From NCBI GenBank assembly GCA_913009655.1, contig CAJVWI010000001.1, positions 62,001 through 126,000 of the forward strand: 64,000 nucleotides of DNA, given 5' to 3'. Numbering within the stretch: the first letter of the stretch is position 1; every line of letters starts with the position of its first letter. The position numbers and the translations under genes are program-made. Positions 32,234 to 35,632 of the stretch are shown in pieces. Origin of the DNA: an uncultured Cryomorphaceae bacterium. Lineage in GTDB: Bacteria > Bacteroidota > Bacteroidia > Flavobacteriales > Schleiferiaceae. The notes beneath the pieces are model-generated. The model was not told the origin of the DNA and did no database searches. It saw nothing but the letters and a program-made list of their open reading frames with translations.

Positions 32234-32264
32234 CAAAGTTAGGCAATTGTGAGTGATTCAACAA
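32234..32264 (-). promoter_or_regulatory. Promoter of the HU gene
   Basis: On the minus strand TAACTTTG (32234-32241) is a perfect -7 box, and a TTG at 32262-32264 lies 20 bases upstream of it. The ATG is about 50 bases downstream. It reaches up to the mutY start. Confidence 0.6.
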
Positions 32265-32266
32265 TT

Positions 32267-33283
32267 ATGATAAATAAAATTCAAACAGATCTAATAAAGT
32301 GGTTTGATAATCATGGACGCTCATTGCCATGGCGAAGAACAAAAGACCCGTATGCAATATGGTTAAGTGAGATAATACTACAACAAACCCGGATAGATCA
32401 GGGCCTCAAATATTGGGAGAATTTCTTAAGGGAATTTCCCGATGTGAAGAGTCTTTCGATGGCTAAAGAGAGCGAAATATTAGCTTTATGGTCAGGTTTG
32501 GGATATTACAGCCGAGCGAGAAATATATATAAAGCAGCGCATATTTTAGTATCTAAATATGAAAGTCAATTTCCAAAAACATCTTCAGAACTATTAAAAA
32601 TCCCAGGGATAGGACCATATACAGCAGCTGCCATATCCTCGATCTGCTTTGGGGAAGTGACCCCTGCACTTGATGGAAATGCATTTCGAGTTTATTCTAG
32701 ACTCTTTGCAATGAGTTCTCCAATTGAAAAGCGATCAACAATTAAAGACATATGGACCCTGGCGTTACCTCTAATATCTAACAAGAGTCCGGGAGATAGT
32801 AATCAAGCCATAATGGATATTGGCTCAACTATATGTAAACCTAAAAACCCAAATTGCCCAGAATGCCCTCTCGAGGAAAATTGTATTTCAAGAAGATCTG
32901 GTATCCAACATGAGTTCCCTGTGAAATTAAAATCTATAAAAATTAAAGAAATAGAAAAATTTTACGTGCTTCTGAAGAGGGGCGAGAAATATGGTTTAAT
33001 TAGACGTCCAAAAAGTGGAATATGGGGCGGACTTTGGACACCCTTGGAATTAATTCCTGAAGATTGGGAGTTAGCCAAGACAAATAAAAATATTGATGAG
33101 AGTAATATTAAATATCTAAAACATCTTTTATCCCACAGGAAAATGAATCTTTATTTCACATACTGGATCGGGGATACATTTCCTGAGAATAAAGAAATAC
33201 AATGGTTCTCTGAACAAGATTTGAAAAGACTAGCCTTTCCTGCCCCAATAATAAAAATATTAAGTGAAAAAAGTTACTTTTGA
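32267..33283 (+). CDS. mutY: A/G-specific adenine glycosylase MutY
   Basis: I use the ATG at 32267 (MINKIQTDLIKWFDNHG); a GTG 18 bases earlier is also possible. The product of 338 residues has EIILQQTRIDQG near residue 35 (catalytic Glu), the helix-hairpin-helix LLKIPGIGPYTAAAI and the Asp segment TPALDGNAFRVYSR. The iron-sulfur loop CKPKNPNCPECPLEENC keeps all four cysteines, in contrast to the Nth in this window. A NUDIX-like C-terminal domain reads 8-oxoguanine. It removes A opposite 8-oxoG. Gene order HU-mutY-(ssb)-gldE-gldD is typical of Bacteroidota. Confidence 0.95.
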   Translation: MINKIQTDLIKWFDNHGRSLPWRRTKDPYAIWLSEIILQQTRIDQGLKYWENFLREFPDVKSLSMAKESEILALWSGLGYYSRARNIYKAAHILVSKYESQFPKTSSELLKIPGIGPYTAAAISSICFGEVTPALDGNAFRVYSRLFAMSSPIEKRSTIKDIWTLALPLISNKSPGDSNQAIMDIGSTICKPKNPNCPECPLEENCISRRSGIQHEFPVKLKSIKIKEIEKFYVLLKRGEKYGLIRRPKSGIWGGLWTPLELIPEDWELAKTNKNIDESNIKYLKHLLSHRKMNLYFTYWIGDTFPENKEIQWFSEQDLKRLAFPAPIIKILSEKSYF

Positions 33284-33304
33284 GATTTAATATCTTTAAA
33301 TAAA

Positions 33305-33691
33305 ATGCGGGTTGCATAAATAAATCGAGACTGGTAGATAACCTAGGAATAGACACTGAAAGAATAAATTTTGATAAAAAAATAAAACTCCCCATCAATA
33401 AATCAGAAATTACACAGATAAAAAGGGTTAAAAAAAGATCACCGAATGGCTCAAAATTATTTTCAATCACATAGATTAACAGAGGTTTTGGAGTGATGCC
33501 TTAAATGAAGACAAAATATTCATTCAAGGTATAATGAGATCTAGGCAATGAACAGATGAAAATAGCAACACCAGATATAATTTTAAATAGCTACTATCTC
33601 TATAAGAATCTTGGAGCCGAACATCAGTAATGAAAATGATGTAAATTCGCAAATGGCTGGCGATAATCAAAATAATTATTTGCCGTTTTAA
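33305..33691 (+). pseudogene. ssb: Degraded single-stranded DNA-binding protein gene
   Basis: No intact frame exists here, but fragments in different frames match SSB in order. INKSRLVDNLGIDTE (from 33316) resembles INKxxLVGNLGxDPE. NFDKKIKLPINKSE (from 33367) resembles the next strand. ITEWLKIIFNH (33438-33470) resembles ITEWHNIxxFN. RLTEVLE resembles RLAEVLEKY. LNEDKIFIQGIMRSRQ (from 33501) resembles KGDKIFIQGxxRSRxW, then a stop, then TDENSNTRYNF. The 3' end encodes SQMAGDNQNNYLPF and TAA, the usual SSB acidic tail ending in LPF. At least two stops and several frameshifts separate these. This is the standard place for ssb in the block. The functional ssb must lie elsewhere. Confidence 0.82.
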
Positions 33692-33723
33692 CATATCCAG
33701 TACATTGATCTAAATCATTATAA

Positions 33724-35034
33724 TTGAACCCCGAACCCTTCTTTTTTTCATCAATTTTTCACCCCTTTCCCAGTGAAGTTATTTTTCACCTTATTGCGAT
33801 GTTGTTATTATTGATTGGTTCTGCATTCACCTCTGCATCAGAAGTGGCTTATTTTTCACTTTCACCAAATCAAAAAGTCGAGTTAGGCGAACATAAATCG
33901 ATTTCTTCAAAACGAGTTTTGGAAGTCCTCAAATCTCCAGAGACATTGCTGGCAACATTATTAATTCTCAATAATTTATTCAATCTCGGACTGATTTTAT
34001 TGTCAACATTGGCAACAAGTTTGATTTTCAATTTGGAAGATTATCCATTATTAGCATTAGGAATTCAAACATTTTTTATCACCACTTTAATACTCGTTTT
34101 TGGTGAAGTTATTCCCAAAACGTATGCTACGAATAATGGACTTAATTGGACTATGACTAGTTCTAAATTTATTCAAAATGCAATTAAATTTTTTAATCCA
34201 ATAAGCATGGCTTTGGTAAAATCGTCTCGCTATATCGATCGTTTTAGCAAAACGAAGTCTCTAACAGTTAATGAGCTTGAAGAGGCTTTAGATTTAACCT
34301 CAGAGGAAGCAACAACACCTGAACAGCAAAGACTTTTGAGAGAAATCGTAAAGTTTGGATCAACGAGTGTCAAACAAATAATGACACCACGCCAGGATAT
34401 CTTTGCAATTAATTCTGATCTTGACATCAAGATGGTTTTAAAATCAGTTTCTGAAAATGGGTATTCAAGAATTCCAATATTTCAAGAGAGTCTTGATAGC
34501 ATATCAGGAATTTTACATGCAAAAGATCTACTTAACCATTTAGATGCTTCTCATGAATTTAAATGGGCAGAACTACTGAGACCTGCTTTTTTCGTTACAG
34601 AGAACATGAAAATTGATGATTTATTAGGTGACTTCCGACAAAAAAAAATGCATATGGCTGTGGTTGTAGATGAATTTGGAGGTATCTCAGGAATTACCAC
34701 CTTGGAAGATGTTATGGAAGAAATTGTCGGAGAAATTCGTGATGAATTTGATTCTGATGAACGACTTTATTCTCAATTGGACAATTCTACTTTTGTATTT
34801 GAGGCAAGAGCTCAATTAACAGATCTCTACCGCGTTTTAAACATAAGTCCTGAGATCCTAGAAGAATATAGAGGCGAGGCAGATACAGTAGCAGGGATAT
34901 TATTAGAGCAACTTGGGCGAATGCCATTAAAGGGCGAATCACTCATTATTGGTCCAATAAAATGGACCGTTGAAGCTGCAGATGTTCGCAGGATTGTTCG
35001 TGTAAAAGTGAAATTAATTGAAAATGAAAACTAA
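33724..35034 (+). CDS. gldE: Gliding-associated membrane protein GldE
   Basis: The TTG start at 33724 gives N-terminus NPEPFFFSS, close to the DPEP start of GldE homologues. The 436-residue protein has a DUF21 membrane domain (about residues 20-170, with SASEVAYFSLSPNQK), a CBS pair (about 205-325, IMTPRQDIFA and GGISGITTLEDVMEEIVGE) and a CorC_HlyC C-terminus. GldE accompanies GldD and is linked to gliding/T9SS in Flavobacteria. It overlaps gldD by 11 bases, confirming the pair. It is the paralogue of the gene at 2125. Function in transport is not established. Confidence 0.88.
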   Translation: MNPEPFFFSSIFHPFPSEVIFHLIAMLLLLIGSAFTSASEVAYFSLSPNQKVELGEHKSISSKRVLEVLKSPETLLATLLILNNLFNLGLILLSTLATSLIFNLEDYPLLALGIQTFFITTLILVFGEVIPKTYATNNGLNWTMTSSKFIQNAIKFFNPISMALVKSSRYIDRFSKTKSLTVNELEEALDLTSEEATTPEQQRLLREIVKFGSTSVKQIMTPRQDIFAINSDLDIKMVLKSVSENGYSRIPIFQESLDSISGILHAKDLLNHLDASHEFKWAELLRPAFFVTENMKIDDLLGDFRQKKMHMAVVVDEFGGISGITTLEDVMEEIVGEIRDEFDSDERLYSQLDNSTFVFEARAQLTDLYRVLNISPEILEEYRGEADTVAGILLEQLGRMPLKGESLIIGPIKWTVEAADVRRIVRVKVKLIENEN

Positions 35035-35632
35035 ATTTATTTCCACAGCAATCCTATTTTTTGTTGTTGCCTTTACAGCAAATATTTTTCATCTTTTCTT
35101 TTCGTCATCTCCAAGCTCTGCAGATCTAAGACCATCTGGTTTTATGAGACTTACAATTCCCAAAGACAGCTTGATAGAACTAAAATTAAATAATCTTAAT
35201 TTGCCATTTAACTTCATTCACAGTAGCAATGGATATTGGATTAATAAATCAGAATTGGGCTGGGGAGATATATTTTATCCTTTTTGCAATGGCAGAATCC
35301 AGATCACACATAAAACTATCAATGGAAACTTATCCCAATTAATTGACGATGCACATAAAATGACTTTTAAACACTCTATAGTAGCAGAGGGTATTGATCA
35401 AAAAAACTACGTAAATTCTGAAAGAAATGTAAATGGAATGATCTTTCGTATTTTTGGAAATACAGCATCCAGTATTCAATTTTTTGCGACTGATAGTATA
35501 TCCAATTTTATTCGTGGAGCGGCATACATTTATGCTCAACCTAATCCTGATTCTTTAAAACCCATAAACGAATTTCTTGAGCAGGAAGTAATAACTATTA
35601 TGGAATCAATTTATTGGAATTCAGATATTTAA
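35024..35632 (+). CDS. gldD: Gliding motility protein GldD, without lipobox cysteine
   Basis: The start is the ATG at 35024, overlapping gldE. The 202-residue protein has the GldD core: SGFMRLTIPKDSLIELKLNN, WGDIFYPFCNGRIQITHKTI, LIDDAHKMTFKHSIVAEGI, ASSIQFFATDSISNFIRGAAY and PNPDSLKPINEFLEQEV. GldD is normally a lipoprotein, but here the hydrophobic start (about residues 7-27) is followed by SSSPSSADLRP with no cysteine, so it is either an uncleaved anchor or a cleaved soluble protein. This is seen directly in the sequence. GldD is required for gliding and T9SS secretion in Flavobacterium. Confidence 0.88.
   Translation: MKTKFISTAILFFVVAFTANIFHLFFSSSPSSADLRPSGFMRLTIPKDSLIELKLNNLNLPFNFIHSSNGYWINKSELGWGDIFYPFCNGRIQITHKTINGNLSQLIDDAHKMTFKHSIVAEGIDQKNYVNSERNVNGMIFRIFGNTASSIQFFATDSISNFIRGAAYIYAQPNPDSLKPINEFLEQEVITIMESIYWNSDI

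Follow-up and report, generated by a model that had tools for sequence, protein, structure and literature searches.

Results and discussion

SSB is a textbook essential protein, and the gap between mutY and gldE in the 64,000-nucleotide stretch of DNA analysed here (hereafter the window) raises two questions: whether the ssb gene at this place is truly dead and, if it is, which protein could do its work in the cell. The features concerned are the following.

32249..33283, + strand: mutY, intact, upstream neighbour (HhH-GPD 3.2e-18, NUDIX_4 4.9e-15)
33305..33691, + strand: ssb pseudogene, SSB-A, of PF00436 type; start and stop codons placed by aligning it to the intact ssb of sister genomes
33724..35034, + strand: gldE, intact, downstream neighbour (CNNM, CBS and CorC_HlyC domains)
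35018..35632, + strand: gldD, intact, next in the conserved block (GldD_lipo 7.7e-46)

A decayed ssb gene at its canonical site

The open reading frames listed for the mutY–gldE gap include no forward frame of at least 40 residues. The intact SSB of a sister genome (G015) matched the window by tblastn in three pieces between 33310 and 33688 (33408-33587 and 33581-33688 at 1.05e-15, 33310-33444 at 5.7e-5); together these alignments contain four stops. By eye, the relic starts at 33305 with an ATG aligned to the ATG of the sister gene, the same start as given in the first-pass annotation, meets a stop at codon 5 and ends at 33691 with a TAA after YLPF. The gaps that follow the ATG, also counted by eye, measure 9, 1, 3, 1, 2 and 1 bases, and therefore four of them break the frame. 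These observations agree with the earlier description of SSB-like fragments in the correct order, interrupted by at least two stops and several frameshifts. The best tblastn piece scored 53.1 bits, compared with a maximum of 24.6 bits in 1000 dinucleotide-preserving shuffles of 33284-33723, 567 of which gave any match. A 19-row SSB profile run on the genome bearing the window (G000) matched the relic as well, across three internal stops (one TGA, two TAA). The place itself is the canonical one, as had been claimed: of the other 21 genus genomes, 20 carry an ssb beside gldE. The canonical ssb is thus present in the window as a genuine pseudogene, with PF00436 homology at the orthologous place and no intact open frame.

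Over 33256-33691, the DNA of G000 is 72.9% identical to G015 and 72.1% to a second relative, G011, with eight gap events in each comparison, whereas the same stretch is 91% identical between G015 and G011. The neighbouring genes of G000 share 82% (mutY; gapless over 32249-33255 against G015) and 86-87% (gldE) DNA identity with these genomes without a frame-breaking gap, and the gldE protein is 92-93% identical to those of G015 and G011. Differences found in G000 only are spread over codon positions 1, 2 and 3 of the relic (21/115, 26/120 and 35/107, or 18, 22 and 33%), compared with 17/420, 4/430 and 103/374 in gldE (4, 1 and 28%). Judged by codon position, the relic pattern is one of drift after constraint was lost, with some earlier constrained history, and indicates that the ssb gene in G000 has been free of selection for some time. 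As G000 is a draft genome, an assembly or base-calling fault could in principle mimic a pseudogene while ssb is intact in the cell. However, divergence of ~27% over all codon positions within a 147.8-kb contig, normal coding drift in the neighbouring genes of the same contig, and lesions that are many and of several sizes make such an artefact barely credible. Sequencing or base-calling error as the source of the relic was rejected on the drift at all codon positions.

Loss of both ssb copies from the G000 assembly

Among 22 genomes of the genus, PF00436 matched twice in 13, three times in one (G017), once in seven and not at all in G000. The first-pass annotation assumed that another ssb copy had taken over, and proposed searching the rest of the genome for it. 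No intact ssb was found in the G000 assembly (1.72 Mb, 33 contigs, 89.8% complete): PF00436 gave no match, making it the only one of the 22 without, and the 19-row SSB profile returned nothing beyond the relic at E values up to 10.

The second copy, here SSB-B, was present at one site in all six genomes examined. In G012, G006, G018 and G002 it has a peptidase gene on one side and, on the other, an FAD enzyme gene accompanied by a small cysteine-rich gene; in G005 and G008 it is flanked by the same FAD enzyme and peptidase markers. The small cysteine-rich gene beside SSB-B was located at 4090-4473 of L055, 5435-5821 of L057 and 4309-4746 of L059. In G000 the SSB-B site is empty, with its two flanking genes 25 bases apart, and in four relatives (G011, G013, G015 and G016) the flank matches are adjacent, 74 to 110 bases apart, without SSB-B; the one PF00436 gene of each of these relatives is the mutY–gldE copy. 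The corresponding sites in G000, G015 and G016 showed neither a remnant of SSB-B nor its small cysteine-rich neighbour. Two 11-residue matches at E 0.74-0.75, located several kilobases away in G000 and G015, were taken as chance.

Since the four relatives have an empty SSB-B site like that of G000, SSB-B was probably lost in their common ancestor; it would have disappeared once, in the ancestor of G000, G011, G013, G015 and G016, with the loss of SSB-A following later in G000. Among these genomes, SSB-A has also been lost in G000 only, by drift. No intact PF00436 ssb is left in the G000 assembly, and both copies known from the genus are gone from it. A separate wreck of SSB-A is seen upstream of gldE in G018 (contig C5, L032/L100), the one other genus genome without an intact ssb beside gldE: by eye, approximately the first 165 bases are left before the start of gldE, and SSB-B and a gene of the family DUF3127, described below, are kept.

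The first-pass expectation of another ssb copy retains some probability because G000 is 89.8% complete. The pseudogene would then be real, and the cell would have acquired an intact canonical or phage-type ssb, situated in the tenth of the genome that was not assembled or not binned, for instance on a plasmid or prophage. Both the completeness of 89.83% with 33 contigs and the fact that metagenome bins commonly lose mobile elements speak for this explanation, and an acquired ssb in the missing tenth is the main doubt about any replacement. We nevertheless consider it unlikely, given that both chromosomal ssb sites of the genus are accounted for in G000, one empty and the other dead, and that the second copy occupied the SSB-B site in every genome examined for it. 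A third PF00436 match, moreover, occurs in only one of 22 genus genomes and is weak (G017, E 8.8e-4). In addition, PF00436 is absent from four other genomes at 97-100% completeness (G044, G047, G051 and G057), and its absence is therefore viable.

A DUF3127 protein with an SSB-like tip

The substitute for ssb in G000 is probably a member of a different, SSB-like family rather than the ssb copy that had been expected. DUF3127 (PF11325), a Pfam domain without assigned function, was reached through weak matches of an SSB profile to a 117-aa protein of G047 (E 0.013) and a 111-aa protein of G051, a 300-kb genome (E 0.005), both of which are DUF3127 proteins ending in DDLPF. G000 encodes one such protein.

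G000:C20:11255-11647: DUF3127 gene of G000, intact, 130 aa (PF11325, E 1.5e-29)

The protein begins with an SSB-like domain, continues in a linker rich in Pro, Gly and Ala, and ends in the tip IDDDDLPF. Its gene is constrained, with 5, 4 and 17 G000-only differences at codon positions 1, 2 and 3. DUF3127 is also present in the sister genomes G011, G013 and G015, and was therefore presumably present before SSB-A died. A DDLPF end was found in 55 of 55 readable bacterial DUF3127 copies, the 56th (G005) being masked. These 56 comprise sets of 30, 20 and 6 copies, 19 of the 20 coming from genomes without PF00436; from the 57 DUF3127 matches in a 60-genome sample they take in the 30 best and G047, with G044, G057 and six more added later. 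The count leaves out weaker extra DUF3127 copies, such as those in G033, G040 and G048, and covers 22 of the 49 PF00436-less genomes with DUF3127, G184 being left out.

Ten of the 19 intact SSB-A proteins read in the genus end in LPF or FPF. The C-termini of the other nine, at L033, L034, L035, L036, L037, L038, L039, L040 and L058, are DDQF, DDQY, EEQF or EEQI, without Pro-Phe, and the genus SSB-B proteins read, including three in one set, also have a C-terminus without Pro-Phe. DUF3127 is readable in five of the nine genomes with tipless SSB-A and ends in DDDDLPF in all five, where it is the sole tip-bearing SSB-like protein found (SSB-B was read in G008 only). The DUF3127 of G005 runs into masked letters, while G002, G007 and G019 lack both the SSB-A tip and a visible DUF3127, which weighs against replacement.

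Similarity of DUF3127 to SSB

By hhalign, DUF3127 scored 95.8% against SSB with an E value of 7.6e-9 over 120 of 125 columns (one pair). A profile search of the PDB with DUF3127 listed SSBs first (1se8 at 6.5e-6) and translation factor IF-3 among the weak matches, a faint similarity that recurred in several profile searches and counts against the SSB reading. The DUF3127 proteins of G047 and G051 matched PF11325 and gave no PF00436 match at E up to 0.1; four DUF3127 proteins searched against NCBIfam gave nothing above cut-off, that of TIGR00621 included. Assuming gapless ranges of equal length, a conserved Trp of the DUF3127 profile, Trp69, falls on residue 88 of 1kaw. This pairing maps one of the four stacking residues of E. 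coli SSB, given in the available part of PMC3991886 as Trp40, Trp54, Phe60 and Trp88.

The structural comparison used an AlphaFold2 model of a phage homologue (L133) that is 51% identical to the G000 protein; pLDDT is at least 90 for 86 of its 124 residues and low in the linker. It resembles SSBs by Foldseek (3.5e-6) and VIA (Z 11.9). All 50 Foldseek matches listed are SSBs or mitochondrial SSBs, and the 50 VIA matches listed are SSBs, mitochondrial SSBs or PriB, save for a chain of an RNA-editing complex (9dei_G). DUF3127 is thus predicted to have an SSB-type OB fold, as seen on the model of L133 rather than of the G000 protein, a linker of low pLDDT in the same model, and an acidic Pro-Phe tip.

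The VIA scores also bear on the possibility that DUF3127 assists at the replication fork as an OB-fold protein of PriB or another type instead of serving as a general SSB, with something unseen coating ssDNA, since PriB structures score as high against the model as SSBs (Z 11.5, tied with 11.9). However, the linker and the invariant DDLPF tip match SSB, and to our knowledge PriB is without an acidic DLPF tip; up to an E value of 1, the DUF3127 sequence profile retrieves SSBs but no PriB; and DUF3127 is retained in 600-kb genomes in which no PF00436 was found. A mere helper function consequently appears improbable to us, and an SSB function remains our preferred reading of the family.

Phage members of the family are already labelled in this sense. 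The G000 DUF3127 protein matched phrog_4932 of PHROGs from end to end at 5.2e-39, a family named 'single strand DNA binding protein'. DUF3127 matches occur in 95 of 50,697 phage records; among the 25 that were listed, eight, each an NC_ record, give this same name to the matching gene. As PHROGs and RefSeq thus label the phage members SSB, the SSB likeness is not new. Three phages were examined for gene context. In Cellulophaga phage phi18:3 the DUF3127 gene is close to one for RecT, in Nonlabens phage P12024L it adjoins an exonuclease gene near Erf and primase genes, and in Flavobacterium phage Fpv5 it shares a region with genes for a replication initiator, a resolvase and a polymerase. Viral relatives of DUF3127 were found in at least 586 of 600 pattern-matched stretches, and a looser tip pattern in 66 of 79 viral copies (80 loci, with L137 left out).

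Distribution in the Flavobacteriales and the phylum

We surveyed 246 genomes of the order, comprising 245 of at least 95% completeness and G000, which is included in all tallies (60, 22, 246 and 148 genomes). PF00436 was found in 195 of the 246 genomes (67 of 74 by genus) and DUF3127 in 239, as well as in 83 of 148 genomes of a phylum sample. PF00436 is missing from 51 genomes. Of these, 45 belong to family f16 (42 of ~600 kb and three of ~300 kb), presumably insect symbionts judging from genome size and order; the others are G044 and G057 of family f9, G047 of family f12, G184 and G233 from two genera of family f6, and G000. DUF3127 is present in 49 of these 51 and in 190 of the 195 genomes with PF00436, i.e., there is no association. 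With DUF3127 in 239 of 246 genomes, its presence in ssb-less genomes is expected, and co-occurrence is no proof of replacement; the point of the survey is that PF00436 has been dropped and DUF3127 kept, not a statistical trade-off.

PF00436 without DUF3127 was seen in five of the 246 genomes (G002, G016, G022, G034 and G103) and, in the 60-genome sample, also in G007, G019 and G036. DUF3127 is therefore not seen everywhere, which also weighs against replacement. The flavin-reductase-like gene that neighbours DUF3127 is missing together with it in G016 and G002, hinting at assembly gaps there; a homologue of this neighbour is present in G022 and G034, which are also without DUF3127.

Neither domain was found in G194 and G203, two 300-kb genomes of family f16 in 8 and 20 contigs, respectively. 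These may be truly SSB-less symbionts or reflect gaps in fragmented assemblies. Carsonella is listed as being without ssb in the available part of PMC2175510, which suggests that extreme symbionts can lack SSB and may explain G194 and G203. For Blattabacterium Bge, dnaA and dnaN are reported as not found, and the part of the main text of PMC2768785 at hand does not mention ssb; the available part of a paper on whitefly symbionts includes a table that puts ssb among the lost genes.

Probable replacement of ssb by DUF3127

Taking the pseudogene together with the predicted fold and tip, we consider it likely that DUF3127 does the work of SSB in G000, and it is the likeliest substitute for the lost gene. 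We hypothesise that the protein encoded at G000:C20:11255-11647 coats ssDNA and recruits repair and replication proteins via its tip. The cell would have survived the loss of ssb because it already possessed another protein of SSB type.

A broader proposal, which we put forward tentatively and hold to be possible rather than probable, is that DUF3127 is an overlooked house-keeping SSB of the Flavobacteriales, perhaps of the wider Bacteroidota, and the copy that is hard to lose, the canonical ssb being dispensable. The latter might then have been dropped repeatedly (in G000, G044/G057, G047, G184, G233 and the symbiont-sized family), although how many independent losses this represents can only be guessed from the counts. 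Alternatively it might have been stripped of its partner-binding tip, as in nine genus genomes, with DUF3127 keeping both fold and tip.

Among the matches listed in our literature searches, we found no work on the meaning of DUF3127 for cells without ssb and nothing to the point on the loss of ssb; the papers retrieved on SSB, Bacteroidetes, the OB-fold and the tip are, by title and start of abstract, not about DUF3127. G000, together with the other lineages in which PF00436 is lacking and DUF3127 retained, could turn a domain of unknown function into a testable SSB of a major phylum that carries the partner-binding tip of SSB, and G000 is a natural test of its role. If the proposal is true, calling ssb absent from the reduced symbiont genomes of the order would be wrong in functional terms, and the order would form a natural series with one, two or three SSB-type genes in which the replacement of an essential protein can be studied.

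Comparison with known systems

DUF3127 shares with the primosomal protein PriB the SSB-type OB fold, with a structural Z score against the L133 model tied with that of SSB, and differs from it in the acidic DLPF tip, which PriB is not known to have. The match to phrog_4932 covers the whole G000 protein; this computed phage label, however, is silent on the cellular protein and on ssb loss. ORF25 of Pantoea phage AAS23 is reported as an SSB that matches both an SSB domain and DUF3127; it belongs to a phage of a gammaproteobacterium and, in the available part of its description, was assigned as SSB by similarity only (PMC8004638). Canonical SSB, represented by the E. coli protein and PF00436, resembles DUF3127 in having an OB fold, a linker and a tip of DLPF type, and its Trp88 lines up with a Trp of DUF3127 if the aligned ranges hold no gap, whereas DUF3127 belongs to another Pfam family and lies below the TIGR00621 cut-off. 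According to the available part of PMC3991886, all known bacterial SSBs have their final four or five residues in common, and the canonical tips vary (DIPF, DVPF and DLPF), in contrast to the DDLPF of all DUF3127 copies read.
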